From positions 62,001 to 126,000 of the forward strand of contig NZ_RQVT01000051.1 in assembly GCF_004010055.1 (NCBI RefSeq): a stretch of 64,000 bases of DNA. The letters run 5' to 3'. The stretch comes from Psychroflexus aestuariivivens (lineage in GTDB: Bacteria > Bacteroidota > Bacteroidia > Flavobacteriales > Flavobacteriaceae). The notes under the pieces were generated by a model. It was not told the DNA's origin and made no database searches. It was given only the letters and a program-made list of their open reading frames with translations. Of the stretch, positions 2,451 through 26,457 are shown in pieces. Position numbers and translations under genes: made by a program. How positions within the stretch are numbered: the stretch's first letter is position 1; each line of letters opens with the position of its first letter.

Positions 2451-2530
2451 GGCAAACTCATTATTTTTGAATTTAACGCTTCTTTATTAAGCGTAAACCT
2501 ATAGAAGTTTTATATTTATGATAAAAAATT

Positions 2531-4000: not shown

Positions 4001-4020
4001 AATTCTCGAACTTTTCTAAC

Positions 4021-4100: not shown

Positions 4101-4198
4101 TTTAAATACTTTCATGAATCTGTAAAACAAACACTTATAAGATATTTTTAATTGTTTTTTTAATATATGATGACTTTATATTAACCTCGTTATTTGAA

Positions 4199-4720: not shown

Positions 4721-4782
4721 AAGTGAATTAATTTTAAGATTTAGTATATGGTTTTTTCATAGTTGGTAATTGAAATATTATC

Positions 4783-4998: not shown

Positions 4999-5026
4999 TA
5001 TTATAGATTTTGAGTTGTATATTAAA

Positions 5027-5734
5027 TTAAAAAGTCCGTTTTATTACCTTCCAAATAGAATGTACATCATCTAGAATTAATGAGAAATCAGGAAATTCAG
5101 GCGAAGGGTTTCTAGATTTACATATAATTTTCCCCTCAACATCAGAATCTTCAATATCTTTATGAAAGATTCCATCTTTTGATACAATAATCCATCCATA
5201 ATCTGTAGGTCTAAAACCGTCAGGCCAATGATGCCTGCCTAATTCACGACCTAAAACTTCAGCACCGTTTGGAGTATCGTTAATACCTCCACCATTCATG
5301 CTATCATTACCTGTATTGAAGGCAATATACTTGCCTAATCCTATCTTGTCAACTGTAAAATATGATACTCCGAATGTGTTGTGGAGTTCATATTCATCCT
5401 CAAATACTTCTATAAAACTTGCGTATGCCTTGTAAGGCACCTTTGGAGCTTGAATCATATACTTACCATTTGGGAGTTCTACATATTTATTTCCGTGATT
5501 ATTTTCAATGTAGTTAACTTCTTTATCAGAAACTACAGATTGTGTATTTTGTGCGTTTTGTTCTGATTTAGAAAAAATGATATTTTTTATTACTTCAAGG
5601 TATTCTTTTTTAACACTACCTCTATTAAAAGCCAATCGCAATCCATTTCCTGAAATTGGCAAATCTTTGGACAAGTCGTCCCAGCTGTAGCCCTTAAGCT
5701 TTTTATTTTTTAGGATGTATTCTAATTCATTCAT
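5027..5734 (-). CDS. Phage repressor with S24/LexA-like C-terminal domain
   Basis: This 235-aa protein is the CI-type repressor. The N-terminal 50 residues form a helix-turn-helix-like DNA-binding region (GYSWDDLSKDLPISGNGLRLAFNRGSVKKEYLEVI). The C-terminal half is S24-like: Ser145 in TGNDSMNGG and Lys186 in IIVSKDGIF, 41 residues apart, fit the Ser-Lys dyad of self-cleaving repressors. The expected Ala-Gly cleavage site is not obvious (KAYASF stands roughly where it would be), so self-cleavage is uncertain. The gene is transcribed away from the early operon. A palindrome (5734-5756) abuts its start codon, suggesting autoregulation or control by another phage factor. Confidence 0.88.
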   Translation of the reverse strand: MNELEYILKNKKLKGYSWDDLSKDLPISGNGLRLAFNRGSVKKEYLEVIKNIIFSKSEQNAQNTQSVVSDKEVNYIENNHGNKYVELPNGKYMIQAPKVPYKAYASFIEVFEDEYELHNTFGVSYFTVDKIGLGKYIAFNTGNDSMNGGGINDTPNGAEVLGRELGRHHWPDGFRPTDYGWIIVSKDGIFHKDIEDSDVEGKIICKSRNPSPEFPDFSLILDDVHSIWKVIKRTF

Positions 5735-5756
5735 TATTTAGAATAATTTTAAATAA
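5734..5756. promoter_or_regulatory. Palindromic operator at the repressor start
   Basis: TTATTTAGAA-TAA-TTTTAAATAA: 10-bp arms with one mismatch, starting at the repressor's start codon. The same palindrome with perfect arms occurs at 34747-34771 and 48714-48736, both in promoter regions. It is probably a binding site for a dimeric phage regulator. Confidence 0.65.
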
Positions 5757-5758
5757 GT

Positions 5759-5818
5759 ACAAAACGAACATTTTATCTTTGTTTTAGCTGTTCGTATTGT
5801 TCGTTTTGTGTATATTTG
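5759..5818 (+). promoter_or_regulatory. Early divergent promoter with GTTCG-type operators
   Basis: The 12-mer TGTTCGTTTTGT (5798-5809) has an exact inverted copy at 5759-5770 and a one-mismatch direct copy at 5789-5800, giving three half-site-like elements. They directly precede an exact -7 box, TATATTTG (5811-5818), pointing into the early operon. The arrangement is what is expected for repression of the early promoter by the adjacent repressor. A good -33 TTG is not visible at standard spacing. Confidence 0.7.
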
Positions 5819-5860
5819 TACTCACATACATAAACAAATATAAGATAAAATTTAGAACTA

Positions 5861-6097
5861 GTGGAAAAACTAATCATTATCAATCAGAATTTGTGTTCGG
5901 AAAGTCACCGAATAAAGTTGGTTTCAACTCCAGTAGTTATTGAGGCAATTTTTAAAACAAAAAAGTGCGGAGTTTGGGTTATGGATAAAATATTCATGGA
6001 AACTTTTACTAAAGATAATTACAACCACCAGTTTAAAAAATTACTCGAAAACATTGAAAAAGAGTGCAATATCAAATTATTAAAACCAGCATCATGA
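5861..6097 (+). CDS. First early gene, unknown small protein
   Basis: This 78-aa protein uses a GTG start about 35 bases past the predicted transcription start. There is no recognised family and no signal peptide; the C-terminal half is a charged helix. It occupies the position where Cro- or CII-like regulators are found, but I see no convincing helix-turn-helix. Its TGA overlaps the next ATG (ATGA at 6094-6097), so translation is coupled. Confidence 0.65.
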   Translation: MEKLIIINQNLCSESHRIKLVSTPVVIEAIFKTKKCGVWVMDKIFMETFTKDNYNHQFKKLLENIEKECNIKLLKPAS

Positions 6098-6348
6098 ATA
6101 TTGAAGAATTACACCAAGAGCTACAAGTGGTATCAAAAAGATGTAAAGGCTTCCATAAAGAAGTCGCAAATGATTCAGGTATCAGTTATGTGTATCTATC
6201 TAGACTTAAGAAACCCGAATACAAACTCACAGATACTGAAGAGAATAGAACTCTTTTGAAGAAAATTATCAAAAACTATCGTAGGGCAGTTCAAAGAAGA
6301 ATTCAGGAATACCAATCCTTGAGTTCAGAAATTTCAGTAATAGAATAA
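6094..6348 (+). CDS. Small helix-turn-helix-like early protein
   Basis: Starting at the ATG that overlaps the preceding stop, this gives an 84-aa basic protein. The segment KEVANDSGISYVYLSRLKKPEYKL looks like a Cro/XRE-type turn-helix region, and is followed by a helical basic tail (KIIKNYRRAVQRRIQEYQ). A plausible early regulator or DNA-binding accessory protein. An upstream in-frame ATG at 6064 lies inside the previous gene and is less likely. Confidence 0.65.
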   Translation: MNIEELHQELQVVSKRCKGFHKEVANDSGISYVYLSRLKKPEYKLTDTEENRTLLKKIIKNYRRAVQRRIQEYQSLSSEISVIE

Positions 6349-6360
6349 ACTCAAACAGTC

Positions 6361-6585
6361 ATGACAAAATCTCAACGCATCAAGCATATCAAAAAAGAGC
6401 TATCAGATTTAGATGTTCATGAAGAAATTTTCAAACAAAGCTTAAGTGCAACTACAAACCGAAAGAAGTACTTAAGACAGGAGCTGGAAGAATTGGGAGC
6501 TTCCAGTTCCTCCCGAAAGGGAAAACAAGAGAGCGTATTAGATATGAAGCAAAAAGCCAAGCTTATTGCAAGTTTAACTCAATAA
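6361..6585 (+). CDS. Small coiled-coil early protein, unknown
   Basis: This 74-aa, highly charged protein is mostly helical (QRIKHIKKELSDLDVHEEIFKQSL, then KKYLRQELEELG), with a serine-rich hinge (GASSSSRKG) before a final helix. It follows the HTH-like gene by 12 bp in the early operon. No family recognised. Confidence 0.6.
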   Translation: MTKSQRIKHIKKELSDLDVHEEIFKQSLSATTNRKKYLRQELEELGASSSSRKGKQESVLDMKQKAKLIASLTQ

Positions 6586-6595
6586 ATCTAAAATA

Positions 6596-6787
6596 ATGGA
6601 AAGATTCAACAAAGAAGCAAGAGAACTTATAGATAAACTCGAAAAGGCTATCAGCTGTAATGACAGTAAAAAAGTTTCCAAATTATATGAGGAATCAATT
6701 TTAATCGACTGGGAAAATGTATCGGATCAATTGTTTGGAAAGTATGATGATCTGATTGACAAAGGAAACGAACTACTATTAAAATAA
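6596..6787 (+). CDS. Small early protein, unknown
   Basis: This is a 63-aa acidic, helical protein (KEARELIDKLEKAISCNDSKKVSKLYEESI) spaced 10 bp after the previous gene and 6 bp before the next. Tight packing in the early operon supports it as real. No recognised domain. Confidence 0.6.
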   Translation: MERFNKEARELIDKLEKAISCNDSKKVSKLYEESILIDWENVSDQLFGKYDDLIDKGNELLLK

Positions 6788-6793
6788 ATCATC

Positions 6794-7195
6794 ATGAATT
6801 CACAAACCAACTATATAAAACTGAAATCTAAATATGAATATCTCAGCGATGAAGATATCCAAAACGGTATTGAAGACATTACTTCAAGATTGGTCGAAAT
6901 GAATGAATTCAAATCAGTTGATCAAGCTAAGATATATATCAACCAAACTATAGAAGATTTTATGGATGACGATTATTTAACAAAATTCAATCGCATCCTT
7001 GGCAGAATTGACAAACGCGGAATAGCAATCACAGATTCGTTTCAGAAAAATCTGTTCTCAAAAATGAGAATGAAACTGTCAATACTCAATTATTTCAACA
7101 AAGCTAATTATGAAAAAAGCCCTTTAAAACAGGCGGTTCATAATGCATTTCAAATATTTCACAATTCACCACATAATTCAATAATCAAATTTTAA
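6794..7195 (+). CDS. Early phage protein, unknown
   Basis: This 133-aa, largely helical protein has no family I recognise. The N-terminal part is acidic (SDEDIQNGIEDITSRLVEM) and the C-terminal part basic. It ends 4 bp before the DUF1351-like gene and so probably belongs to the recombination/early module. Confidence 0.6.
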   Translation: MNSQTNYIKLKSKYEYLSDEDIQNGIEDITSRLVEMNEFKSVDQAKIYINQTIEDFMDDDYLTKFNRILGRIDKRGIAITDSFQKNLFSKMRMKLSILNYFNKANYEKSPLKQAVHNAFQIFHNSPHNSIIKF

Positions 7196-7199
7196 ATCT

Positions 7200-8621
7200 A
7201 TGGAAACTACAGCAACCCCAGAAATTAAAAAAGAAGTCATTACACTTGATAAAGTGAATGTTAGAAACCTTCCTGAACTTCAAGGATGGAAGCAAAAACA
7301 AAAACAAGTTGTAAAGAATCATCCTTTTGTAGCAATCAAGGATAACAAAACTTATGAGGAAGCTAAAAAGCATCGTACCGCTTTAGTTTCAGCAAGAACT
7401 GATATTCAGAAACAAGATAAACTAATTGCTTCTAAACTAAAAGAGCTTAGATCTGAATCTAAAAAAGTAGCTGATGAATTAATTCAAATCACTCAACCAC
7501 ATGAAGACAAACAACAGGATGAAGTTAAGCGATATGAAGATAAAAAGGAAGCTGAACGCAAAGAGCGGGAACGCATAGAACGTGAGCGAAAAGAAGCGAT
7601 TCAGAATAAAATTAACAGTGTTTATGCTTACTGGAAAACTAAAATTTCTCAATTGGAATTTGAAAATATATCTGAATTTGAAAAATCACTTGAAAATGGC
7701 ATTTCAAAACAAGATTCTGAAGAAATGGAAGAGTTTGAAATGGATTGGGCTGAGAAGAAAAATCTTCTAAAAAATCAATTAGAAGAGCGTATAAAATACA
7801 TAACTGAGCAAGAGGAAGCTAGAAAAGAACGTGAACGTTTAGCTGAGGAACGCCGAAAATTTGAAGAGGAAAAACAAAAAGAAGAGGAAGCTCGAAAGGC
7901 TCGAGAAAAAAAGCTTAAAGAGAGAAATGCAAAACTAAAACCATATATCAGATTCATAAGAGATTATGATCAGGTACTTTATCTATCGGATGAAGACTTT
8001 GACAAAGAACTTGAAAGTCTTGATCACCAAGCTTTAGAACAAAATAAGTTTGAAGCTAAACGTAAAGCTAAAGAGGCTGAGGAGAAAAAACAACGTGAAG
8101 CTGAGGCTGAGAAACTTCGCAAAGAAAAAGAACACATCGAAGCGGAAAAACAAGCTCAAGCACAAAAAACATTTGAAATCAGATGCAATCGACTTGGTGA
8201 AGTTGGCTTTGTCGAAAATCATACTGGAGCATTTGTAAACGATTCTCACAAAGTTCAGTTAGAAAGTTTAGTTGATGATGTTTATGCAATGGATATGGAA
8301 GAGTTTGAAGATTTTATCCAGGATGCAAAAACAGAATTAGTAAACGCCAAAGCTGAAGCAGAACGTAAAGCTCAGGAAGAAGCTGAATTAAAAGAAAAAC
8401 GAGAAGCTGAGGAAAAAGCTAAAAAAGAAGCTGAAGCCAAAAGACAAAAAGAACTTCAACCGGATAAATCCAAAGCTGAATCATTCATCAACGCACTTGG
8501 ATTCAGTGAGGAAATACCAACAATAAAAGATAAAGCTATTGAGGATCTGCTAAGAAATTTCGCAAATGAAGCTAAGGATCTTCAACTATCATACATAGAC
8601 GCTTTAAATCAAATCAAGTAA
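7200..8621 (+). CDS. DUF1351-like coiled-coil protein of the recombination module
   Basis: This 473-aa protein is dominated by very long charged coiled coils rich in K, E, R and A (about residues 85-240 and 270-330, and again near 390-430). The first 90 residues (VVKNHPFVAIKDNKTYEEAKKHRTALVSARTDIQKQDKLI) resemble the start of DUF1351 proteins, which sit beside phage recombination genes. It precedes an OB-fold gene and a YqaJ exonuclease, consistent with that placement. A scaffold or mediator role is inferred. Two globular inserts separate the coils. Confidence 0.6.
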   Translation: METTATPEIKKEVITLDKVNVRNLPELQGWKQKQKQVVKNHPFVAIKDNKTYEEAKKHRTALVSARTDIQKQDKLIASKLKELRSESKKVADELIQITQPHEDKQQDEVKRYEDKKEAERKERERIERERKEAIQNKINSVYAYWKTKISQLEFENISEFEKSLENGISKQDSEEMEEFEMDWAEKKNLLKNQLEERIKYITEQEEARKERERLAEERRKFEEEKQKEEEARKAREKKLKERNAKLKPYIRFIRDYDQVLYLSDEDFDKELESLDHQALEQNKFEAKRKAKEAEEKKQREAEAEKLRKEKEHIEAEKQAQAQKTFEIRCNRLGEVGFVENHTGAFVNDSHKVQLESLVDDVYAMDMEEFEDFIQDAKTELVNAKAEAERKAQEEAELKEKREAEEKAKKEAEAKRQKELQPDKSKAESFINALGFSEEIPTIKDKAIEDLLRNFANEAKDLQLSYIDALNQIK

Positions 8622-8651
8622 ATCAATTATTAATCTTAAATATTTCAAATT

Positions 8652-9071
8652 ATGCAGACAGAAGAAAACAAAGCAGAATTACATCCAAAAAACGGAGAAA
8701 TCACATTTATGATGCCAAGTACAAACGCACTTGGTGCATTGAAAAAGGCTGAAAAAGGACGTCAATTGACCGTGAGCTATAAAAAGAAAGAAGAATGGCT
8801 AGCTGAAGTTGACAAGCCAGTTAAATGTTTCTTTTTAGGATTAAAAGAAGCTACAGATGCAAAGGGAGAAACCTACTTCATAGCCAAACTTCACGACGGA
8901 GAAAAAGCCTTTGTATGTGCACAAACCGTACTAGTTCAATCTCTAATGAGTACAGAATTAGGACAGGGTGTTGAAATTACATGCACTGGATCAACCAAAA
9001 CAAATGGAAATGAAATTCCATTGTTTGACGTCGTAGAGTTAAATGTTAATATCACGAAAGGTGATGAGTAG
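8652..9071 (+). CDS. OB-fold-like, possible single-stranded DNA-binding protein
   Basis: In this 139-aa protein the central part (VKCFFLGLKEATDAKGETYFIAKL, then VEITCTGSTKTNGNEIPLFDVVEL) looks like an OB-type beta barrel with a strand pattern similar to phage SSB-like proteins. It lies between the DUF1351-like gene and the YqaJ exonuclease and overlaps the latter by 8 bp. It is therefore likely to serve strand annealing or protection. Assignment is by pattern and context, not by a named motif. Confidence 0.5.
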   Translation: MQTEENKAELHPKNGEITFMMPSTNALGALKKAEKGRQLTVSYKKKEEWLAEVDKPVKCFFLGLKEATDAKGETYFIAKLHDGEKAFVCAQTVLVQSLMSTELGQGVEITCTGSTKTNGNEIPLFDVVELNVNITKGDE

Positions 9072-9798
9072 TGTAGCTCAAATATCTGAAGAAGCTAAGG
9101 CAGAACATGAATCTGCCTTAGCTAAACTTCATAAGTTGAACAAAGAAAAGGAGTGGCTGGAGAACAGAAGAACTCGTTTTACAGTTTCAGAATATGTTCG
9201 GCTTATGGGATATGAAGATAATCCTGATTATGAAACTAAACTTACCAAAGGTGGGATTTCATACGCTTATGAAAAGTACCTAGAGGAAATTAGCACATTC
9301 AGCAAAAGTTTTTCAACTGCATCAACCGAACATGGAAATGAATTTGAAGTTGATGCCGCAGTTAGATTCATGGATGAAACGGGATTGAAAGTTCACAACT
9401 TCGGAGATGATCAAGAGTTTATAAAACTAGGCAAAGATTTAGGCTGTACTCCAGATGGTTTAATAGAAGATTGGGCAGGCTTAGAAACTAAATGTCCAGA
9501 TTCTAAAACACAGGATCAATATCTAAATGACATAAAGGGTCAGGAAAGCTTCAAAGAAGTTTGCAAAAAGTACTACTGGCAAATCATGGGTTCCATGTAT
9601 ATAACAGGAAGAAAGTCTTGGTATTTCGTCTCCTATGATCCTAGAATGATCAGTGAAGATGAACAAATCTTAATCCTAAGAATTGATCGAAATGAAAATG
9701 ATATCGAAAAACTCAAAAACCGTTTGAGGATGGCCATTGGCTATAAGTTATCACTACTCAAAAAAAGAGCTAAACGCAAACCTCTCAGAATAGTTTAG
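9064..9798 (+). CDS. YqaJ-like phage recombinase (lambda-type exonuclease)
   Basis: The protein is 244 aa from the ATG at 9064, which overlaps the preceding gene by 8 bp; a start at 9043 would overlap more and is less likely. The PD-(D/E)XK nuclease core is visible: HGNEFEVDAAVRF, GCTPDGLIEDWAGLETKCP (metal-binding Asp, then Glu-x-Lys), and QIMGSMYITGRKSWYFVSYDP with the conserved Gln. It should resect double-stranded ends 5' to 3' for phage recombination, working with an annealing protein, perhaps the OB-fold protein upstream. Confidence 0.88.
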   Translation: MSSVAQISEEAKAEHESALAKLHKLNKEKEWLENRRTRFTVSEYVRLMGYEDNPDYETKLTKGGISYAYEKYLEEISTFSKSFSTASTEHGNEFEVDAAVRFMDETGLKVHNFGDDQEFIKLGKDLGCTPDGLIEDWAGLETKCPDSKTQDQYLNDIKGQESFKEVCKKYYWQIMGSMYITGRKSWYFVSYDPRMISEDEQILILRIDRNENDIEKLKNRLRMAIGYKLSLLKKRAKRKPLRIV

Positions 9799-9800
9799 AT

Positions 9801-10004
9801 ATGTCAGGAAGTAAAACAATATGGTGGGGTTACGTGCATGAGAATGGTAGTATTCAGGTTAAAAGATATTTCAATGATGCAGACATTCAAGATGCAATTG
9901 AATCTCCATTTGTAGGAAAAGTAATCAGCAGAATTGAAGTTCCTGTTGATGTCAAAAATCATAGAGAGTACGCAGAAGAAATAGCAAATATAATGCTTCG
10001 ATAG
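9801..10004 (+). CDS. Small early protein, unknown
   Basis: A 67-aa protein 2 bp after the exonuclease stop. It begins SGSKTIWWGYVHENGSIQVKRYF and has an RIEVPVDV strand. No family recognised; tight packing supports it. Confidence 0.6.
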   Translation: MSGSKTIWWGYVHENGSIQVKRYFNDADIQDAIESPFVGKVISRIEVPVDVKNHREYAEEIANIMLR

Positions 10005-10006
10005 CG

Positions 10007-10204
10007 ATGAATTGGGAAGAACATAAGGGAGTGAAAAAATACAAAATCTTAAGATCGAATCTAGATTCAAAAGGTTTTGTCACTCATATCAATCGTGTAA
10101 ACGAAAAGTGTTTTAACCTAATCATCAATGGCGAAATAGTAAAGGTTTACAAAAAACGCCAATCAGCAAATAATTATCTAATCAAATTATTCAAAAAATT
10201 ATGA
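10007..10204 (+). CDS. Small basic early protein, unknown
   Basis: A 65-aa lysine-rich protein (KGVKKYKILRSN, VYKKRQSANNYLIKLFKKL) in a tight run of genes. Its stop overlaps the next start (ATGA at 10201-10204). Function unknown. Confidence 0.6.
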   Translation: MNWEEHKGVKKYKILRSNLDSKGFVTHINRVNEKCFNLIINGEIVKVYKKRQSANNYLIKLFKKL

Positions 10205-10581
10205 GTTACGAATTAGAATTACGCGGTTTTGTTCACAGAAATTGTAGTGGACAAATCATAAATCAAATGCGATACGCATCTCCATTTCAATTATATAAAT
10301 GGAAGGAGCAAGGCACTGAAATCAGCATCATGCTTTTTTCAGGAAAACTGGATAAGAATAACAGAAAAATCTTCGCTGGTGATCTTCATAAAGATGAAAC
10401 TATAGTTGATGGTGAAATGAAGGCGAGTTATTATCCTATCATTTTTGAAGATGCTTCATTTTGGGTTGATGAAAGTTTCAAGAAAGATGGAACATGTCTA
10501 ATACCGCTTTCTGAATATCCTGAACCAATCAACATCCAAGGAAACATATTTGAGAACCCAAACTATAAAAGTGAAGGATAA
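10201..10581 (+). CDS. YopX-like phage protein
   Basis: This 126-aa protein fits the YopX family layout: an N-terminal region, the IMLFSGKLDKNNRKIFAGDL strand pair (family pattern FTGLKDKNGKEIYEGDI), a middle containing IIFEDASFWVDE, and the C-terminal NIQGNIFENP (family GNIYENPEL). YopX proteins are common in phage early regions and have no firm function. The stop overlaps the next ATG by one base. Confidence 0.78.
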   Translation: MSYELELRGFVHRNCSGQIINQMRYASPFQLYKWKEQGTEISIMLFSGKLDKNNRKIFAGDLHKDETIVDGEMKASYYPIIFEDASFWVDESFKKDGTCLIPLSEYPEPINIQGNIFENPNYKSEG

Positions 10582-11018
10582 TGCTATACGATACTTCAAT
10601 AGAGTTTGACAAGAAACGAGCCATAGAACGCTTCAAATATCTCATCGACAAGAAAAAAAGAATCGAATTGATTGAGAAAAAAAAGAAACGTTCATTAAGT
10701 CAAAACAACTACTTGCACCTGATCCTTAGTTGGTTTGGACTTGAATTTGGTTACACGCTTGAAGAAGTAAAACAAGAGATTTTTAAAAAAGAAGTCAATC
10801 CTGAAATTTTTTACGATGGAGAAAAATCAGGACTTATCACCATTAGTCGATGGCGAAGTACAGCAGATTGTAATACTGAAGAAATTTCATTGGCCACAAA
10901 TAGGTTTAGAGATTATTCCGCTAAAAACGGGTGTTATCTACCAGAGCCAAATGATCTGCCAGCCATATCCGAGATGGAACGCCAACTAAGTCAACACAAC
11001 GTAAAGCAATATCTATAA
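10581..11018 (+). CDS. NinB-like recombination protein, tentative
   Basis: This 145-aa protein contains KKKKRSLSQNNYLHLILSWFGLEFG, similar to the KRTxxQNxxLxxxL helix of NinB/Orf recombination mediators. Later it has a TEEISLATNRFRDYSAKNGCYLPEP segment, comparable to the NinB C-terminal helix and G-I/C-x-L-P end. NinB-type proteins bind single-stranded DNA and help strand exchange. The neighbours fit, but similarity is by eye and moderate. Confidence 0.5.
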   Translation: MLYDTSIEFDKKRAIERFKYLIDKKKRIELIEKKKKRSLSQNNYLHLILSWFGLEFGYTLEEVKQEIFKKEVNPEIFYDGEKSGLITISRWRSTADCNTEEISLATNRFRDYSAKNGCYLPEPNDLPAISEMERQLSQHNVKQYL

Positions 11019-11299
11019 TGCAAACACTTACAGGAAATATCAAAGAGATTAATACTGATGATTCTGTCAGTTTCCCTAAAAAGATTCTGGAGCTTCAGAT
11101 GCCATTTGGCGAATCAGCTTTCATTGAATTTAGAGGAACTATCATGACCAGGCTACTTGAAGATTTTGATCAAAATGAACTTGTACAAATCAATATAGTT
11201 CTTCAGGGAAGTATCAGTAAAAAGTCAGGATTATTCTATAACAATTTAGTCGCACGAACAATAAAATCAGTAACCCAAAAAACAAAAGACTATGAATGA
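11018..11299 (+). CDS. DUF3127-like OB-fold protein (first copy)
   Basis: This 93-aa protein has a strand order suggesting a small OB fold: TLTGNIKEI, KILELQMPFGESAFIEFRG, VQINIVLQGSI, then SGLFYNNLVARTIKSV. This resembles DUF3127, a Bacteroidota family of SSB-like proteins. A second protein with the same layout is at 23830-24120. Overlaps both neighbours by a few bases. A DNA-binding role is inferred. Confidence 0.5.
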   Translation: MQTLTGNIKEINTDDSVSFPKKILELQMPFGESAFIEFRGTIMTRLLEDFDQNELVQINIVLQGSISKKSGLFYNNLVARTIKSVTQKTKDYE

Positions 11300-15834: not shown

Positions 15835-17247
15835 ATGTTTAATCAAAATTTTTATCCAACACCCGAAAGCGTAATTTCGATGATGACAGCTGATTTGGAT
15901 ATTCAAGAAAAAATAATTCTGGAACCATCTGCAGGAAAAGGAAACATTGTAGATTTCCTAAATAAGCATCAAGCCAAAGAAGTTTTAACCTTTGAAAAAG
16001 AAACCGATTTAGCTACAATTGTCAAACAAAAATCTACTTTCCTGGGCCATGATTTTTTAGAAGAAGCTACAGCTGAAAACCTAAGTCATATTGACTATAT
16101 CATTGCGAATCCACCTTTTGATCAAGCTGAACATCACATTCTGAAAATGTGGGAAGTCGCACCTGAAGGATGCACTATATTGAGTCTTTGCAATATGGAA
16201 ACTATAATGAATGGGTTTTCAAGAAAACGCAGGCAATTAGAACTTCTGATCAATGAAAATGGTGAAGTCAATGATTTAGGTAACTGCTTTGCAACTGCTG
16301 AAAGGAAAACCAATGTCGAAGTAAATTTAGTTCGTTTATTCAAACCTGTCGTTTCTGACTTCAACAAATTCGATGGATTCTTTATGGATGAAGACAATGA
16401 TCCACAAGGCAATGGGATTCTACCTTATAACGAAATCAGGAATATTGTACAAAGTTATGTTGGTGCCGTTGAAAAATTTGATGAAGTTAAAAGCACAGTT
16501 GAAAGTTTAAATAGATACGCCAAGCCAATAGGGGCGAGCGGATCATTTAGTTATTCTGTGACCTATGGAGATACGGTAACCGATAAAGCACATTTTGCAA
16601 AAACTTTACAAAAGACAGCTTGGAAACATGTTTTTAATAAAATGAAAATTGAAAAATTTGTAACCTCTGGCGTGATGCAAAAGGTTAATGAATTTGTTGA
16701 GGTTCAAAGTAAATATCCATTTACGATGAAAAATATTTATCGAATGATTGATATTATAGTTCAAACTCGCGAACAGACATTCAATAAATCCATGATAGAA
16801 GTTTTTGATAAAATCACGAAGCATCATCACAAAAACCGCTATGAAGTTGAAGGATGGAAGACAAATAAGTCTTATCTAGTTGACAAAAAGTTTATATTAG
16901 ACTGGGTAACTGAAATAGGCTTTGATGGACAATTTTCAATTCGATATAACGGGAATCAAAATAAGATGAATGATTTACATAAAGTCTTATGTTTCTTGAC
17001 TGGAGAATCTCCAAAAGATACAATGCGTGAAGATAAAGATGGTAATCATCCACCTATTAGAGAATTGAGTATGTGGCCACATCAACTGAATCTTGAATTC
17101 GGCATCTGGTACGATTGGGGATTTTTTCAGATCAAAGGATTTAAAAAAGGAACTTTACATGTTAAATTTAAAGATGAAAAAGTATGGGAGAAGTTTAATA
17201 GAAAAGTTGCAGAAATAAAAGGCTTCGAATTGCCTGAAAACATTTAG
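15835..17247 (+). CDS. DNA adenine methyltransferase-like protein with DUF4942 domain
   Basis: In this 470-aa protein the first 190 residues are a class I SAM-dependent methyltransferase: EPSAGKGNIV (SAM-binding motif I, about 29-38), LTFEKE (acidic end of strand 2), and IIANPPFD (NPPF catalytic motif, about 90-96), typical of N6-adenine methylation. The rest matches the DUF4942 region often fused to or adjacent to phage methyltransferases (GGFDG-type FDGFFMDED, KWKTNKSY-like GWKTNKSYLVDKKFILDWV). No partner nuclease is adjacent, so it probably protects or marks phage DNA. It ends in a good terminator. Confidence 0.82.
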   Translation: MFNQNFYPTPESVISMMTADLDIQEKIILEPSAGKGNIVDFLNKHQAKEVLTFEKETDLATIVKQKSTFLGHDFLEEATAENLSHIDYIIANPPFDQAEHHILKMWEVAPEGCTILSLCNMETIMNGFSRKRRQLELLINENGEVNDLGNCFATAERKTNVEVNLVRLFKPVVSDFNKFDGFFMDEDNDPQGNGILPYNEIRNIVQSYVGAVEKFDEVKSTVESLNRYAKPIGASGSFSYSVTYGDTVTDKAHFAKTLQKTAWKHVFNKMKIEKFVTSGVMQKVNEFVEVQSKYPFTMKNIYRMIDIIVQTREQTFNKSMIEVFDKITKHHHKNRYEVEGWKTNKSYLVDKKFILDWVTEIGFDGQFSIRYNGNQNKMNDLHKVLCFLTGESPKDTMREDKDGNHPPIRELSMWPHQLNLEFGIWYDWGFFQIKGFKKGTLHVKFKDEKVWEKFNRKVAEIKGFELPENI

Positions 17248-17254
17248 AAAAACG

Positions 17255-17278
17255 AAAGGCTACTTTGAAGTAGCCTTT
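17255..17278 (+). terminator. Terminator after the methyltransferase gene
   Basis: AAAGGCTACTT/AAGTAGCCTTT, 11-bp near-continuous stem with a short T run, 8 bp past the stop. A close copy follows the next gene (17830-17857); both are followed by (T)AACCAATCT. Confidence 0.85.
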
Positions 17279-17334
17279 CTAACCAATCTTATGGATAACA
17301 TGATTCCATGTACGAATATAAATAAAATTTAATC

Positions 17335-17826
17335 ATGACAACAGATAGAGCTATAAAAAGACGAAATAGAAAACTTCAGAATTTCTTTGATAATTTATTT
17401 CCTGAAATTATAGGTACAGATGTAAATATTTCAATAATTGGTAATGAAAACACACCGGCCATCATTATAGATCATAGAAAAGTGTTGAGCTGCTATGTTC
17501 ATAATTTCGACCTTAGATTTACAGATCTTCCCTCAGGTGGCGAAATTATGCACGAAGAAAAATTAACTTGGGAAATGAATCCAGATCATGAAAAAATCAG
17601 ACAATGGTTTCATGAAGCTCAGCACCGAAGTTGCTATAAAGTTAAGGTGAAAGGCACTGATCTATATCTGGCTGGCTACAATTTTCTGAAACGTGATAAA
17701 GAAAATCCTAAAGGGCGGTATCCAGTATTTGCACCATACGGATTCAAATATTATTTCACAAAAGAAAAAGCTGAAGAAATCGTAACAGATTATTCTAGGA
17801 AAGGAATGGAGCTGGAGGTTGTGTAA
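17335..17826 (+). CDS. Hypothetical protein between duplicated terminators
   Basis: This 163-aa soluble protein has no family I recognise. It starts with a basic helix (TDRAIKRRNRKLQNFFDNLFPEI) and has a central beta-rich part (ISIIGNENTPAIIIDHRKVLS). A C-terminal half contains HEAQHRSCYKVKVKGTDLYLAGYNFL and KYYFTKEKAEEIVTDY. It stands alone between two near-identical terminators, suggesting a single-gene cassette at the edge of cargo block 1. Confidence 0.65.
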   Translation: MTTDRAIKRRNRKLQNFFDNLFPEIIGTDVNISIIGNENTPAIIIDHRKVLSCYVHNFDLRFTDLPSGGEIMHEEKLTWEMNPDHEKIRQWFHEAQHRSCYKVKVKGTDLYLAGYNFLKRDKENPKGRYPVFAPYGFKYYFTKEKAEEIVTDYSRKGMELEVV

Positions 17827-17829
17827 TAA

Positions 17830-17857
17830 AAAAGGCTACTCATCAAAGTAGCCTTTT
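17830..17857 (+). terminator. Second copy of the GGCTACT terminator
   Basis: AAAAGGCTACT (17830-17840), 6-base loop, AGTAGCCTTTT (17847-17857). It marks the end of the preceding single gene and the start of cargo block 1. Confidence 0.85.
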
Positions 17858-17939: not shown

Positions 17940-17947
17940 TATATTTG
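17940..17947 (+). promoter_or_regulatory. -7 box of the first HEPN gene
   Basis: TATATTTG, an exact TAnnTTTG match 39 bp before the ATG at 17986 and after a terminator. A TTG at -33 is not evident. It suggests cargo block 1 has its own promoter. Confidence 0.5.
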
Positions 17948-17985: not shown

Positions 17986-19845
17986 ATGTGGATAAGTAAA
18001 AGTCAGGAATGGAAAAGTTCTCATTCAGATTTAAGCAAATATTTTATAGAAAAATTAAAGCAGCAAGTTGATTCTACAGAAATAATATCCAATAAGCATA
18101 GAACCACAAATGGATTAACCTTGATTTCGGAAATCATTAATGTTGCCAAGATGACCAAGGACAGACCTAAATATAAAAACAGATTGATCAGCTTATTGGA
18201 GGAATCTAAGGACACCAATTTAAAGTCTAATATTGTAAATGACTATATAGTATCTAGATATTTTAAAGACATTAAAAATTATTACTCTGGTCTAACCCCT
18301 AGAAAAATTGCATCTAAAGAACGAGAAATTAAATTACTTATAATTAAGTCAAAAATATTTCAGTCAAGGGTTCAAGAAAAGTATTATAAATATATTTTGA
18401 ATGAAATACAAAATATAAATTTTGATACTGAAAATTTTGAAAGGGAAGCAAAAAAAATAGATTCAATAATTTCATGTTTTACTCCCTATGTTTTGTTTTT
18501 GGGTTATTCTACCACTAGTATAAGTGAAATAGCTTATCGCTACGTATTTAAACCATATGGAAAATCTGCACCGCAAAAGATAGCTGAACACTTTAACGGT
18601 AAAAGAAGTGAATTTAAATTTCTGATAAAAGCACAAAAAAATGCTCCAGAATTTTCTTTTATCAAGAAGAATTTGAATAAAGATCACATTTCAATTAATG
18701 AAATCGAATTTGAAAATGTGAAAAGTTTAATGTTCAATAATGACCTTAAAATGTCTGAAAATGATGAACTTTTTGAATTATCGACCAAGGTAAGAGATCC
18801 GCATAATTTTTTAAGAATATTATATGATTTAGGATTAAAATGGTATGTAGCTAAATCTGCAAGACTTTCCCTAAACTTTTTTACACCCTTTTTTGATAAT
18901 GTTTATTGGAGATTTGGAAAAGCCGTTTCAGATAACAATCATAAATATCAAAATAGCAAAATACTATTAGATCCTATTAATGTCCCAAACAGACCAGATA
19001 CCTTACACGAAACTCTAAAAAAATTAGCACAAGATTTTAAATTTGATGATAAACTTGAAAATGGTATTCCTGCATACTCAAACCTTTTACAGCCAATATA
19101 TTTTTATAATCTAGCTTTAGGTTCAAAGTCGATTGAAAATTCAATCTCATTACTGTGGACCTCTTTGGAAATGATAGTACCTTACCGGCCTTATGAATAT
19201 GATATTGAAAACGTTCAATACTTTGTAAGTAAATCGCTAGCTATTGGATCAGTTGGAAGGGAATTAACTTCATTTATATTAAGATATGTTGAAACAAACA
19301 GCTTAAACAATGATGAATTATCTACAGAAAGTTTTAAAGCTCCTTATTTAAAATATACTTCAAGCGGCTTAAAAAAATGGGTCAAATGGTTAACAACAAA
19401 TTTTGATACAAAAGATGATCCATATGAAAAAATTAAAGGTTGCTCAAATCTTTTATGTAGTCAGTTCTGCTTCTTGAATGATACTTATTCCGGCAACTCT
19501 GAATCATCTGAGTATTGGCTGAACAAAATTACAAGTTCTGAAAAATCAATAAAGTATCAACTAGACAGGATTTACCTTCATAGAAATCAAATAGTACATA
19601 CAGGTAAATTCATTAACGAATATTCAAATCTCTGGTCACATCTTGAGTGGTATGTTGGAAAGCTTTTAAGTTACTGTATTCTAGAAAGTATGAATGGAGA
19701 AGAAAATCTTGAAAAGATGTTCTTAAAATTACATTCAAAAAATGAACAAATTATTTCAATTTTGGAAAATAATAAAGACAAGAAAATTAATGAAATGGAA
19801 TTTATATTTGATGATATTTTAGAACCAACTTGGCAATTTTTTTAA
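17986..19845 (+). CDS. Large HEPN-motif protein, probable phage-defence effector (HEPN 1)
   Basis: A 619-aa protein with no signal peptide. The C-terminal region has a HEPN ribonuclease motif: Arg533-Asn-Gln-Ile-Val-His538 in RIYLHRNQIVHTGKF, preceded by helices (SLLWTSLEMIVPY and KIKGCSNLLCSQFCFLND) and followed by LWSHLEWYVGKLLSYCIL. This is the RNxxxH arrangement of ApeA-like HEPN defence proteins. The first 400 residues match no domain I know and may be the sensor. It is probably an RNase that acts on RNA during infection by other phages; that is inference from the motif and the cargo setting. Confidence 0.65.
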   Translation: MWISKSQEWKSSHSDLSKYFIEKLKQQVDSTEIISNKHRTTNGLTLISEIINVAKMTKDRPKYKNRLISLLEESKDTNLKSNIVNDYIVSRYFKDIKNYYSGLTPRKIASKEREIKLLIIKSKIFQSRVQEKYYKYILNEIQNINFDTENFEREAKKIDSIISCFTPYVLFLGYSTTSISEIAYRYVFKPYGKSAPQKIAEHFNGKRSEFKFLIKAQKNAPEFSFIKKNLNKDHISINEIEFENVKSLMFNNDLKMSENDELFELSTKVRDPHNFLRILYDLGLKWYVAKSARLSLNFFTPFFDNVYWRFGKAVSDNNHKYQNSKILLDPINVPNRPDTLHETLKKLAQDFKFDDKLENGIPAYSNLLQPIYFYNLALGSKSIENSISLLWTSLEMIVPYRPYEYDIENVQYFVSKSLAIGSVGRELTSFILRYVETNSLNNDELSTESFKAPYLKYTSSGLKKWVKWLTTNFDTKDDPYEKIKGCSNLLCSQFCFLNDTYSGNSESSEYWLNKITSSEKSIKYQLDRIYLHRNQIVHTGKFINEYSNLWSHLEWYVGKLLSYCILESMNGEENLEKMFLKLHSKNEQIISILENNKDKKINEMEFIFDDILEPTWQFF

Positions 19846-19894
19846 ATTAAAGGTATTGTTAATTTTATGTTTTGTCGAGAAAGTCTAAAAATCT

Positions 19895-19945
19895 AAGGTT
19901 TTCATCAAACTAAAACTAAATTTTCTTCCATTGAAAACCTCGGTG
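19895..19945. repeat. Inverted repeat between HEPN genes 1 and 2
   Basis: AGGTTTTCA and TGAAAACCT (9-bp arms, about 30 bp apart) lie in the 198-bp gap between the two HEPN genes. It is a possible operator or weak RNA structure. I see no convincing promoter box for the next gene. Confidence 0.3.
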
Positions 19946-20043
19946 GCTCTGTTTTGAGGATTATCAATTGTTTTTAAAAAAATAAGATGAAAATAAAAAC
20001 CTAATACAAATATTTTGACAATACATTTAAAAGCATATATTGA

Positions 20044-21012
20044 ATGAAGTATCTTAAGATAAACATCCCATCATATGTATTGCCAGAAACTAAATATACT
20101 TTAGACAAAGGAGTCTATATTTTTCCCTCAAACATCAATCAACCTTCCAAAATAATTGATAAAGTCTATCTTTCCTTAATTATAACTGATGAAAGTTTAT
20201 TTTTAATTAATTCGGACAATCTGAAAATTTGCGTTAGTTCATTCATAGTGTTTCTAAATTTTATTACATACTCTGTACATAGTGCTATATGGTTGCAGAC
20301 TGTTAATTTTAAGGTGTTATATAAAGAAGTTAGTGAAGCTGATAGTCTTAATGAAATTGTTGAAAATTATATGGAATTTGAAAAATCTCAAATAAATTAT
20401 TTTTATCATAATTTTAATTATCTCGCATTACAAATTGGTACTCAAAAATCTGACAGTGACGATTACGCTAATTTTGTTTATTTATATCGAAAATATATTA
20501 ACTTGGATTATAAGGACCCTTTAAAAGATAAAATTGATTTATTATCATTCACTTCTGTACAACCCAATCTAACAAATAATTATTATGATAATCAAAATGT
20601 TGAGATAAGTCTTGTTTATACTATTCTTGACTCAATTATAAAAGATTATCTGAAAGATAACCAAACAGTTAAGAAATGTGAGAATTGCGGTTTTAAAAAG
20701 ATTGGTAGGAAGAATGATAAAACTAGAATTAGTGAATTTATAGATCTATTAGAAATTGAAGATCCAAAACTTTGGAAAAGTATATTAATGAATTTATATA
20801 GAATTAGAAACGAGTTTTTTCACGAAGGTAAAATTGATAACCTTAATGAAAATATAGATAAGGCTTTCAAAGAGAAATTAAATGATACAAAAGAATCAGG
20901 TTTGACAATTAAAGAGGAAGTTAAATACAATCAAAGCCGTTTACTAGGTCTCTTAAAGGTTAAAATGATGATTAGAAAAATTTTAATCGAATCATTAAAA
21001 AAACAAGTATGA
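20044..21012 (+). CDS. HEPN-motif protein with Cys pair (HEPN 2)
   Basis: A 322-aa protein ending in a HEPN-like region with Arg255-Asn-Glu-Phe-Phe-His260 (LYRIRNEFFHEGKI), again RNxxxH. A CENCGFKKIG segment shortly before (about residue 217) recalls the CxxC insert of some ApeA-type C-terminal domains; only one Cys pair is clear. The N-terminal half is unrecognised. Same strand as HEPN 1, with a 198-bp gap. No overall similarity to HEPN 1 is visible beyond the motif. Confidence 0.6.
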   Translation: MKYLKINIPSYVLPETKYTLDKGVYIFPSNINQPSKIIDKVYLSLIITDESLFLINSDNLKICVSSFIVFLNFITYSVHSAIWLQTVNFKVLYKEVSEADSLNEIVENYMEFEKSQINYFYHNFNYLALQIGTQKSDSDDYANFVYLYRKYINLDYKDPLKDKIDLLSFTSVQPNLTNNYYDNQNVEISLVYTILDSIIKDYLKDNQTVKKCENCGFKKIGRKNDKTRISEFIDLLEIEDPKLWKSILMNLYRIRNEFFHEGKIDNLNENIDKAFKEKLNDTKESGLTIKEEVKYNQSRLLGLLKVKMMIRKILIESLKKQV

Positions 21013-21014
21013 AA

Positions 21015-21052
21015 CTAATTATATTTAAATTTTTTAATTTAAATATAATTAG
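21015..21052. terminator. Bidirectional terminator between convergent HEPN genes
   Basis: A perfect 17-bp inverted repeat (left arm 21015-21031, right arm 21036-21052; CTAATTATATTTAAATT and its complement) around a TTTT loop, followed by T-rich sequence rightward. It separates HEPN 2 from the convergent HEPN 3, overlapping the latter's stop codon. Confidence 0.85.
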
Positions 21053-22017
21053 CATTTTTTTAAATCCTCAATCAGTTCAGGGGTTAACAATGCTTGTTTT
21101 AAAACCATTTTGGTTATAACATTGAGAAAATCAAGAATCTTATTTTTGTTATCAGCTAGAATACTTAAGTCTTTTTCGAAATCGACTTTATTACCGTGAG
21201 CAATACTGTTTCTGTATCTATATAATTTTCCTAAAATTATAGGCAAGTTTAAGGTGTCAGGACCATTAAAATAATCCATTACAAGTATTGGTTTTTTTGA
21301 GAGATTATTTATCAAGTTAATTTTATTTTTTAATTGTTCATTTATGCTTGATTCATTTGGTTTATACGTCGATAAAAGTAGCTCTAAAATTGAAAAAAAA
21401 CCTATTACTTTAAATGGGGAAATATTTGATATTCTTTGTAAATGCATAAAGTCTTTTAGAGATTTATCAATACTATCAAATTTACTTTCATGTTTAAAAA
21501 AATCTTTTAAACTATAAATTAAATCCTTAATTTCCTTTATATCAGATTCTGTTATTTCTTTGATTGGAGTTTCAAATTTAGATCTATCAGTAAAAAAAAC
21601 GAAGCTCTTTATGGGATCGTACATTCCTGGTAATATTTCAGGCTTTTCATCTAATCCAGAAATATCACAAACCCAACTTTCAAAATGAAATCTTAAATTT
21701 AATCTTGATAAACTAAAAGCTAATGGTAAAACCCTATCGTTATAGGGTAAGTTATGTTTAATAATTGTATATTTCCATTCACTACTTTCTAATTTATGCC
21801 AATTAAAATGAGTTGGATCATCAGATTTAGCTTTTAGGTCAAATTCATATATATTTGGATCATATTGATTAAATACCTGATTTTTTATACTATACTCTCT
21901 TAAGTATTCAATAATTTTAGGATCTGGTCTGCAAATAACCAAGTCATCAATCTCTATCGAATTTTTATTATTATTAAAGTTTATTTTATCGGCAATAAAG
22001 TAAAATTTTTCATGCAT
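21049..22017 (-). CDS. HEPN-motif protein on the opposite strand (HEPN 3)
   Basis: This 322-aa protein has Arg269-Asn-Ser-Ile-Ala-His274 in KLYRYRNSIAHGNKV, the RNxxxH HEPN signature. It is preceded by a helix containing FFSILELLLSTYKP and followed by a terminal helix (FLNVITKMVLKQALL). The N-terminal half is unrecognised. It is convergent with HEPN 2 and has its own upstream -7 box, so it is an independent unit within the same cargo block. The identical length to HEPN 2 (322 aa) looks coincidental, since their sequences differ. Confidence 0.6.
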   Translation of the reverse strand: MHEKFYFIADKINFNNNKNSIEIDDLVICRPDPKIIEYLREYSIKNQVFNQYDPNIYEFDLKAKSDDPTHFNWHKLESSEWKYTIIKHNLPYNDRVLPLAFSLSRLNLRFHFESWVCDISGLDEKPEILPGMYDPIKSFVFFTDRSKFETPIKEITESDIKEIKDLIYSLKDFFKHESKFDSIDKSLKDFMHLQRISNISPFKVIGFFSILELLLSTYKPNESSINEQLKNKINLINNLSKKPILVMDYFNGPDTLNLPIILGKLYRYRNSIAHGNKVDFEKDLSILADNKNKILDFLNVITKMVLKQALLTPELIEDLKKC

Positions 22018-22057: not shown

Positions 22058-22086
22058 CAAATATAGCCAAAAAAACCTTATATTTG
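22058..22086. promoter_or_regulatory. Divergent -7 boxes between HEPN 3 and the packaging operon
   Basis: Leftward TATATTTG (22065-22058) faces HEPN 3; rightward TATATTTG (22079-22086) faces the RuvC-like gene 74 bp on. Both match TAnnTTTG exactly and are 13 bp apart. Good -33 elements are not seen for either. Confidence 0.5.
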
Positions 22087-22159: not shown

Positions 22160-22603
22160 GTGTCAAGTGTTATAGTCGGAATAGATCCTGGCGTAGATAC
22201 TGGTGTCGGTCTTTGCTTTTCTAATAAAGACAAAGACGCGCTGACTTTGCCTATTCATAAGGCTTTCAACTTAATCAATCATTTAGTCAACACTAATGAA
22301 AAAGTTTATGTTAGAGTAGAGGACGCCAGAAAACGCAAATGGTTTGGTAAAAACTCCAATAGCAAACAACAAGGCGCTGGATCCATTAAACGAGATTGCA
22401 AAATCTGGGAGGATTTTTTAACTGAAGTAAAGAAAGATCATCCTGGTAAATTCAATTTTCAAATGATCCATCCAGTCAAAGGCGCAACCAAACTCAATTC
22501 AAAAACATTTAACCAAATCACAGGAATAACAAAACGCACCAGCAATCATGCTAGAGATGCGTATATGCTTGTCCATGGTTTAAACCCAAAACTTATAAGA
22601 TAA
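22160..22603 (+). CDS. RuvC-like Holliday junction resolvase
   Basis: This 147-aa protein uses a GTG start. RuvC/RNase H-fold acidic residues are visible: Asp9 in VGIDPGVDTGVG, Glu in VRVEDARKRKWFG (about residue 54), and the C-terminal Asp in SNHARDAYMLV. Phage resolvases of this type clear branched DNA before packaging. It is the first gene of the rightward block that leads to terminase, which fits. Confidence 0.88.
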   Translation: MSSVIVGIDPGVDTGVGLCFSNKDKDALTLPIHKAFNLINHLVNTNEKVYVRVEDARKRKWFGKNSNSKQQGAGSIKRDCKIWEDFLTEVKKDHPGKFNFQMIHPVKGATKLNSKTFNQITGITKRTSNHARDAYMLVHGLNPKLIR

Positions 22604-24852: not shown

Positions 24853-25036
24853 TCTAAAAATTGAATCAGGTAAAGTCTTCGTCAATGAAAAAGAAACCAA
24901 AAATGCTGAACTGATTGGTTATGCAGTTTTGGATCTAGCGGATGAGAACAAAGAAAATTTAAACATCTTGGATGATCGCGAAACTCAAAACTATTATAAA
25001 ACACATAGCGGTAAGTCAGTATTGATTGAAGACTAA
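24845..25036 (+). CDS. Small protein between terminase subunits, unknown
   Basis: A 63-aa acidic protein (SSLKIESGKVFVNEKETKNAEL). It overlaps the upstream gene by 8 bp and shares one base with the TerL start, so it is translated with the terminase. No family recognised. Confidence 0.6.
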   Translation: MSSLKIESGKVFVNEKETKNAELIGYAVLDLADENKENLNILDDRETQNYYKTHSGKSVLIED

Positions 25037-26457
25037 TGCTCACAGATGAAGAAATATATGAATTGGAAGTTTTATTGAGGTATCAATCGCTGAATACCTA
25101 CGATGAATACACCAATCCAAATTATAAGTTTCTTCATCAATCCATCATAGAACAAAAGTTTTCTAAACTAGGGAAACTACTCAGAGGTTATGCCGGATGT
25201 ATTTTAGAAGGATCATCACGATCTGGAAAAACTTGGAGTGGTGTCGATATCATCATTTGGCTTTGTACTGAAGTCGAAGAAAATTGCAGAATCAATATTT
25301 ACAGAGAAACTTATCAATCTTTTGAAGAATCGCTTTACGATGATTTCAAAAGACGTTTAGATGATTTTGACTTGCCTAATCCATTCCACAACGCACAGAA
25401 AGTAAAAAGTTTTAAAATAGGCAATAATGTCATTTCCTTTCAAGGTTGTGATAAGATTGGAAAAAAGCACGGTTCAGGTGCAGATTATGTGTTTTTCAAT
25501 GAGCTCATGCACATTCCGCAGAATATTTTTGATCATGCTGAAATGAGATGCCGTAAATTCTGGTGGGCAGATTACAATCCTAGCTTTACAGATCATTGGG
25601 TATTTGATAAAGTCACCACCCGTGATGATGTTGGTTTCCTTAGAACTACATTCAAACAGAACAAACACATCTCATCTCCAGAGCGAAGAAAAATATTGAG
25701 TTATGAGCCTTACAAACCGAATAGCTATGAAATCAAAAACGATGATTTATATTATAATGGCGAACCGATTTCAGATAAAAACCAACCGCCACCACATCCA
25801 AAAAATGTAACAAGTGGCACCGCTGATCCTTTCATGTGGAAAGTCTATGGTTTAGGTCTTCGTGGTGCAATGCAAGGCGTCATCTTCACCAATGTAGAAT
25901 GGATTGATGAATTTCCAGACATTGATTTCACTTATGCCAATGACTTTGGTTTCACCGCAGATCCTAATGTGCTTGTTAGGTATGCAGAGGATGAAAACAA
26001 TATCTATGCAGAACCTTTGACCTACAAAGCCATTGAAACTGACGAGGAATTATCTCAAATCTTAGTTGATTTAGATATTGAAAGGTCTAAACCGATTGAT
26101 TGTGATTCTTCAGATAAACATATCAGCGAAAACAAAGGCACGATTGAAATGGTGAAAGGCCTCAGGAAAAGAGGTTTCAACGCTAGAAAGATTTCAAAGA
26201 AAAAATCTGTGATGTATTGGATTCTCTCGATGAAGAAAAAGAAAATCCACATCGTCAAAAACGATTTTTATAAGAAAGTCAAAAAGGAAAGGGAAAACTA
26301 CACTTTCAAAGAAGTCAATGGTATTCTGATCAATCAACCAATTGATGATTTTAACCATTTCTGGGATGCAGTTCGTTATGGCCACATCTCACACAACGTC
26401 AGTAGCAAAAAACATATTACAAATAAAAGTCTCGCTCAAATGGGCGTAGCATACTAA
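25036..26457 (+). CDS. terL: Phage terminase large subunit
   Basis: This 473-aa packaging ATPase/nuclease has Walker A GSSRSGKT at about 58-65, a Walker B-like strand ending in YVFFNEL (about 151-157), and an ATPase coupling region ADYNPS. The C-terminal RNase H-like nuclease has acidic residues in YANDFGFTADPN, DCDSSDKHIS and DDFNHFWDAVRYG. It cuts concatemers and drives DNA into the prohead through the portal encoded next. Length is normal for the family. Confidence 0.95.
   Translation: MLTDEEIYELEVLLRYQSLNTYDEYTNPNYKFLHQSIIEQKFSKLGKLLRGYAGCILEGSSRSGKTWSGVDIIIWLCTEVEENCRINIYRETYQSFEESLYDDFKRRLDDFDLPNPFHNAQKVKSFKIGNNVISFQGCDKIGKKHGSGADYVFFNELMHIPQNIFDHAEMRCRKFWWADYNPSFTDHWVFDKVTTRDDVGFLRTTFKQNKHISSPERRKILSYEPYKPNSYEIKNDDLYYNGEPISDKNQPPPHPKNVTSGTADPFMWKVYGLGLRGAMQGVIFTNVEWIDEFPDIDFTYANDFGFTADPNVLVRYAEDENNIYAEPLTYKAIETDEELSQILVDLDIERSKPIDCDSSDKHISENKGTIEMVKGLRKRGFNARKISKKKSVMYWILSMKKKKIHIVKNDFYKKVKKERENYTFKEVNGILINQPIDDFNHFWDAVRYGHISHNVSSKKHITNKSLAQMGVAY

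Follow-up and report, generated by a model that had tools for sequence, protein, structure and literature searches.

Three consecutive genes in a prophage of Psychroflexus aestuariivivens are probably a cargo of separate single-gene defences, each combining a sensor part with a C-terminal HEPN ribonuclease. Gene 1 of this block is a remote homologue of the anti-phage protein ApeA, and would have deoxydinucleotides as its trigger and an abortive outcome. The genes occupy positions 17986–22017 of the window, by which we mean the whole stretch of 64,000 nucleotides analyzed (contig NZ_RQVT01000051.1, positions 62,001–126,000; contig C25 of the 3.1-Mb genome in our numbering). An original prediction, made from the nucleotide sequence, had described three HEPN-motif proteins side by side. 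This observation is correct, with a firm identification of gene 1 and a fair one of gene 3, and with gene 2 as a candidate.

Three consecutive genes with RNxxxH motifs

Gene 1 is an intact open reading frame (ORF) of 619 amino acids on the + strand (17986–19845), with the C-terminal HEPN motif RNQIVH (R533–H538; codons at 19582–19599, as computed from the residue numbers). Gene 2 (20044–21012, + strand) and gene 3 (21049–22017, − strand) are intact ORFs of 322 amino acids each, with the motifs RNEFFH (R255–H260) and RNSIAH (R269–H274), respectively. A CxxC sequence (CENC) lies ~40 residues N-terminal to the motif of gene 2. The lengths and motif positions originally given were confirmed by ORF and motif scans, in which each protein has exactly one copy of RNxxxH. 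Genes 1–3 are the only carriers of the motif among the 72 ORFs of at least 90 amino acids in the window (3/72), and the probability that three such ORFs are consecutive by random placement is 0.0012.

The motif is infrequent in composition shuffles (20,000 per protein), occurring by chance in 2.9% (gene 1), 0.6% (gene 2), and 1.8% (gene 3). The longer form YxxRNxxxH is present in all three proteins and occurs in 0.2%, 0.04%, and 0.07% of their respective shuffles. When the block was shuffled base by base 500 times, stop-free stretches reached at most 136 codons, and the three ORFs are therefore not a product of chance. The guanine-plus-cytosine content of the block is 0.262 (0.278, 0.252, and 0.254 for genes 1, 2, and 3), as compared with 0.328 for the prophage, which fits foreign cargo. 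An RNA component was sought with Rfam at gathering cut-offs, which gave tRNA only.

Gene 1 and ApeA

Profile comparisons firmly identify gene 1 as a remote ApeA homologue, lying beyond the models tried. A single-sequence phmmer comparison with Ec2ApeA gave an E-value of 0.0055 over residues 81–574. Relatives of gene 1 are sparse. A sample of 148 other genomes from across the family gave no full-length relative, and two were found among 394 other genomes of the order; searches of phages and of plasmids (E≤0.01) gave none, and viral contigs contained none beyond the prophage itself. Weak partial matches from the order-level search (4/7 genomes, E 0.0018–0.0079) were local only and were not accepted as relatives. 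A scan of genome contigs, which used a three-sequence alignment and was limited to two peptide patterns, returned 127 stretches, among which 10 loci encode gene 1 relatives. All 10 are from Bacteroidota and are 34–67% identical, and two are at the same places as the two order-level matches. The nearest is from Tenacibaculum skagerrakense (67% identity, 100/100 support). Together with the window protein, these relatives constitute a family of 11 sequences, and all 11 conserve RNQI[VI]H with its surrounding block as well as a KHRTxNG sequence near the N-terminus (K37–G43).

The 11-sequence profile was compared with 177,635 distinct PDB sequences, and all five matches at E≤1 were ApeA chains. The best match (E 9.1e-10) aligned positions 79–592 of 612 in the profile with residues 75–568 of 593. 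The motif blocks coincide in this relationship, with RIYLhRNqIVHsG aligned to RIYRTRNLIVHTG, and a further block aligns GSKSIENSLSLLWTSLE to QTNAVENQLLNLWIAIE. A profile from three sequences gave eight matches in the PDB, consisting of six to ApeA and two weak ones to SLN1 (E ~0.8). The structurally characterized proteins are Ec1ApeA, Ec2ApeA, and Ec3ApeA of E. coli (PDB 9hxb to 9hxn). Gene 1 is close in size to Ec2ApeA (619 vs. 593 amino acids), and its family is collinear with Ec2ApeA over ~510 residues, with the C-terminal RNxxxH of one falling on that of the other. Most of the ApeA entries matched contain 10 or 12 chains and one contains 2, which suggests that ApeA forms large oligomers. 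These results appear to extend ApeA to a Bacteroidota clade mostly missed by the models tried, with one member carried by a prophage.

Gene 3 and other HEPN families

Gene 3 can be assigned with fair confidence to the HEPN superfamily, as a putative protein of the RiboL-PSP/MAE_28990 type. At full length it matches PF18735 (RiboL-PSP-HEPN) with an E-value of 1.4e-5 (25.5 bits; cut-off 28.4) and PF18737 (MAE_28990/MAE_18760-like HEPN) with an E-value of 8.7e-4. Both models match the C-terminal half of the protein, and the C-terminal 173 residues score 28.4 bits against PF18735, at the cut-off. A relative with 41% identity occurs in 1 of the 148 other family genomes, among ordinary-looking genes. 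Others occur on a Nostoc plasmid (25% identity), where the protein is annotated as HEPN, and in two plasmid records of Rhodococcus opacus PD630 (23–24% identity). R269 and H274 are invariant in all four aligned sequences of the gene 3 family, and the residue following the arginine is asparagine in two and serine in two.

PF18735 is given in a review as the HEPN domain of PD-T4-2, PD-T4-5, PD-T7-3, and ApeA (PMC10952713). Gene 3 differs from the PD proteins in having no PADLOC match, and it reaches the PF18735 cut-off only as a fragment. Because no PADLOC match exists, gene 3 is not assignable to any PD system.

Three further matches to gene 3 (E 4e-4 to 0.0039) were local and weak, and were not accepted as relatives due to partial coverage. 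The best of these (L015; G154:C12:272921-273172; E 4e-4) lies in an open frame of 533 amino acids and has 35% over residues 217–298, the motif region; it is perhaps a HEPN protein. The host has a second gene with a stronger match to PF18735 (L051; G000:C9:11772-12374; E 6.5e-17, 62.6 bits).

Gene 2, an orphan

Searches of phages and of plasmids (E≤0.01) found no relative of gene 2, and viral contigs contained none beyond the prophage itself. Overlapping samples of 148, 394, and 354 other genomes yielded no accepted relative. The weak local matches in these samples numbered zero, one (E 0.0084), and seven (E 0.014–0.039), and were set aside due to partial coverage. One scan of genome contigs returned 90 pattern stretches, none of them a confirmed relative, and a search of the 10 genomes with gene 1 relatives, made with no positive control, likewise yielded no gene 2. 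Gene 2 has no PADLOC or NCBIfam match, and its Pfam and PHROGs matches are at chance level. In the analysis as a whole, the Pfam matches to NLRC4_HD, Glyco_hydro_2, TMEM18, and MauJ were taken as chance.

When gene 2 was compared with the gene 3 family by hhalign, a match was located at the motif, on LYRIRNEFFHEGK (E 0.0025, probability 12%). In a control that ranked 336 ORFs (window plus 14 loci), gene 2 came first among the 332 nonmembers, at a noise-level E-value of 0.0070. Sequences similar to LYRIRNEFFHEGK are KLYRYRNSIAHGNK in gene 3 and RIYLHRNQIVHTGK in gene 1. By its look and context gene 2 is likely to be a HEPN protein, and it may represent a new HEPN family, of which the collections searched contain no other example. 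The HEPN character originally ascribed to all three proteins is upheld in gene 1 by homology to ApeA and in gene 3 by PF18735 and PF18737; in gene 2 it consists of the motif and a noise-level match.

Prophage setting

The prophage is ~53 kb in length and is bracketed by a perfect 54-bp repeat. The left attachment repeat is at 3947–4000 and the right one at 57240–57293, overlapping a tRNA-Met gene (57248–57322, − strand). Between the repeats are an integrase (55939–57135, − strand; phrog_1, E 1.6e-27), a terminase large subunit (25036–26457, + strand; 57.6% identical to the terminase of Cellulophaga phage Nekkels_1), and genes for a helicase, a replication initiation protein, a ParB-like protein, and portal, major head, and tape-measure proteins. 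IMG/VR contains the same prophage as a 54,164-bp record, in which the proteins of genes 1–3 are all 100% identical to those described here. The prophage looks complete. Its gene content and repeats confirm the location originally proposed for the three genes, between phage replication and packaging genes.

The cargo is preceded by a phage DNA methyltransferase (15835–17247, + strand), which matches methyltransferase PHROGs (phrog_32703, E 6.5e-142) and has phage relatives, and is followed by a Holliday junction resolvase (22160–22603, + strand; phrog_1770, E 4.7e-19). The same methyltransferase occurs in three other contigs (L042, L043, and L045) with different genes after it, the methyltransferase being all that is common. 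The ORFs downstream of it in these contigs lack R[NDHS]xxxH, with the exception of one small antisense ORF, and no second prophage with cargo between methyltransferase and resolvase turned up in the searches made. On these comparisons the slot is at most a candidate hotspot for cargo. In P2, as described in one study, defence systems occupy a comparable slot, from replication endonuclease to portal (PMC9519451). The cargo here likewise lies between replication and packaging or portal genes; however, the phage is a different one and no second occupant of the slot was found. The same study reports that, in one E. coli screen, 12 of 21 new systems were in intact prophages and that 6 of 21 had remote similarity to HEPN (PMC9519451). 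A literature search for HEPN defence in Flavobacterium prophages found no paper on the subject in the library used.

In one of the three contigs, that of Leeuwenhoekiella phage Arctus_1 (L045), a tRNA-Trp gene (10608–10680) comes straight after the methyltransferase, at the position of the cargo in the window.

Neighbourhoods of gene 1 relatives

ORFs were read at all 10 loci of gene 1 relatives; selected neighbours were scanned against libraries and the others were judged by eye. Defence-type neighbours occur at 4 of the 10 (L027, L033, L021/L031, and L028). In L027 (Chitinophagaceae; 612-11136) and L033 (Chryseobacterium; 3402-10305), the gene 1 relative is embedded between hsdS and hsdR, at 9–51 bp from each by ORF calls, and hsdM is located upstream on the same strand, as in type I restriction-modification (R-M) systems. 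In L021 (Chryseobacterium; same place as L031; 7077-11020), sce7726 and sce7725 are directly upstream of the gene 1 relative and a KAP ATPase is downstream; PADLOC puts the sce7726 gene on a model named cll. In L028, the neighbours include an IetA-like ATPase along with an IS256 transposase.

Some members of the ApeA-like clade thus appear to be linked to type I restriction operons. Earlier work had already placed ApeA-type HEPN genes within R-M operons in epsilonproteobacteria (PMC3710099), and the linkage in the gene 1 family is therefore an extension and not a first case. The arrangement in L027 and L033 is PrrC-like, PrrC being embedded with hsdMSR (PMC3710099). Unlike PrrC and RloC, neither gene 1 nor any of its 10 relatives has an ABC ATPase Pfam match, and gene 1 of the window is outside any R-M operon, whereas relatives are inside hsdMSR at 2 of the 10 loci. 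Three contigs of the host genome (C7, C30, and C50) encode type I specificity domains. It is conceivable, though we consider it unlikely, that the gene 1 clade forms a branch of ApeA with linkage to R-M, which in some bacteria supplies type I operons with a second-line suicide ribonuclease, like PrrC but without the ATPase. The prophage would then have taken a free-standing copy and combined this with an unrelated HEPN ribonuclease and an orphan HEPN-like protein, giving each lysogen three ribonucleases with three triggers.

Proposed mechanism and alternatives

The most likely function of the block, as judged from sequence comparisons, is abortive infection by an ApeA-like ribonuclease that would be triggered by phage DNA breakdown products, along with one or two independent HEPN ribonucleases. 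The activator of ApeA is reportedly deoxydinucleotides, as named in the title of a preprint. The gene 1 protein may form a large oligomer, in which the N-terminal and middle parts restrain the HEPN domain until infection by another phage. Deoxydinucleotides, as a small product of DNA breakdown released during infection, would switch the protein on; its paired RNxxxH sites would cut RNA and stop translation, and the cell would die or stall before the maturation of new phage. The action of genes 2 and 3 may be similar, with other sensors and triggers. HEPN proteins with the RNxxxH motif are metal-independent ribonucleases, in which the motif histidine is required in KEN, RloC, and PrrC, and the arginine at least in KEN and PrrC (PMC3710099). 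ApeA, which has HEPN domains, is described as an anti-phage system (PMC7699616). From this literature we infer nucleotide sensing, RNA cleavage, and arrest for gene 1. If all three proteins are active, the block would be a compact natural case in which to ask whether several ribonucleases with different triggers benefit a lysogen.

Several results weigh against reading the block as defence cargo with an ApeA homologue. Gene 1 is very remote from ApeA. It matches no ApeA model in PADLOC, Pfam, or NCBIfam (none at E≤1 for PADLOC PDLC02157 or Pfam HEPN_Apea). PDLC02157 matches 2 of the 11 family members (best E 2.4e-4), the window protein not among them, and Pfam HEPN is found in none of the 11. 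The first ~78 residues of gene 1 (17986–18219), including the conserved KHRTxNG, lie outside the ApeA match. Because the curated ApeA models miss the window protein, we refer to it as an ApeA-like homologue rather than as an ApeA. Against PF18735, gene 3 scores below the cut-off both as the whole protein (25.5 bits) and in a six-frame search (26.9 bits). The best profile match of gene 2 is at noise level (E 0.0070, vs. 0.0072 for an ATPase-like protein of a plasmid that is unrelated), and no relationship was found between the family profiles of genes 1 and 3. As to the loci of gene 1 relatives, the neighbours noted in L029 (an IS256 transposase) and L030 (a serine-recombinase-like gene and a MazF-like gene, neither of which reaches the NCBIfam cut-offs) were limited to mobility or toxin-like genes, and 4 of the 10 (L024, L025, L026, and L032) are among ordinary-looking genes (mfd in L024, the rest judged by eye).

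The original prediction had offered two readings, three stacked ApeA-like systems or one multi-part system. The ApeA-like assignment holds for gene 1, through the E-value of its family profile and the alignment of motif on motif, and is not supported for gene 3, which fits other HEPN families, or for gene 2, which has the motif and a noise-level match. Three ApeA-like paralogues were therefore rejected, the gene 1 and gene 3 profiles having no match to one another, and a recent duplication among the three genes was rejected as gene 2 has no useful similarity to the gene 1 family. A multi-part system, in which the three HEPN proteins would form an assembly or pass on a signal jointly, would account for the adjacency of the sole three RNxxxH ORFs of their size class in the window and for the shared direction of genes 1 and 2. 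However, none of the 10 gene 1 loci has a gene 2 or gene 3 relative within ~6 kb, none of the three gene 3 loci has gene 1 or gene 2, and gene 2 is missing from the search of the 10 genomes with gene 1 relatives mentioned above. Gene 3 is moreover convergent, with its own promoter-type box, and genes 1 and 2 are 198 bp apart. We regard a multi-part system as very improbable. Separate systems in one cargo slot are favoured because partners occur at 0/10 and 0/3 loci, gene 3 is convergent, and the families are unrelated in profile comparisons.

Another proposal, a possible but rather unlikely one, is that only genes 1 and 3 are HEPN ribonucleases, gene 2 being a protein of another kind, such as a nucleic acid-binding or regulatory protein with a chance RNxxxH. 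The empty PADLOC and NCBIfam searches, the chance-level Pfam and PHROGs matches, the noise-level profile match, and the lack of relatives in which conservation could be assessed are consistent with this, and RNxxxH does arise in 0.6% of gene 2 shuffles. Yet the weak match sits on the motif, gene 2 ranked first among the 332 nonmember ORFs, and LYRIRNEFFHEGK is like KLYRYRNSIAHGNK and RIYLHRNQIVHTGK. It is also highly doubtful that the genes regulate or maintain the prophage instead of serving in defence, for instance by eliminating cells from which it has been lost or by targeting host RNA during induction. Their location in a prophage would agree with such a role, and HEPN toxins are known in toxin-antitoxin pairs (PMC3710099). 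Toxin-antitoxin pairs were rejected, however, since there is no ORF of at least 50 amino acids in the gaps between the genes or directly after them, the sole small neighbour being an unclassified ORF of 163 amino acids before gene 1. The ORFs near gene 1 and gene 3 relatives also include no evident phage genes and some defence genes, prophage genes not having been searched for systematically there.

Predicted transcription signals in the block

Boxes of the −7 type with the sequence TATATTTG occur before gene 1 (17940–17947, + strand) and ~41 bp upstream of gene 3 (22058–22065, − strand); we take TAnnTTTG to be the consensus. The box before gene 3, and the convergence of gene 3 on gene 2, had been described originally and were found as described; the box before gene 1 is an addition. 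The 198-bp gap that precedes gene 2 contains no such box; the closest one is at 19803, still within the end of gene 1. Because of this gap, tight co-transcription of genes 1 and 2, which have the same direction, is doubtful.

A perfect 17-bp inverted repeat, terminator-like in form, is located between genes 2 and 3 (21015–21052; arms 21015–21031 and 21036–21052). It folds better than 200 of 200 shuffles on both strands and is almost all A+T. The + side continues with CA and seven T, and the − side has only three T. The T-run therefore favours the direction of gene 2, for which the repeat is a fair terminator, and it is a weaker one for gene 3. The repeat originally called a bidirectional terminator is thus perfect as stated and convincing on the gene 2 side, and less so on that of gene 3.

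Two similar hairpins (17254–17279 and 17830–17857) are located on either side of the 163-amino acid ORF (17335–17826) that precedes the cargo. Each has a stem of GGCTAC.../...GTAGCC followed by TAACCAATCT, and each region folds better than 200 of 200 shuffles.

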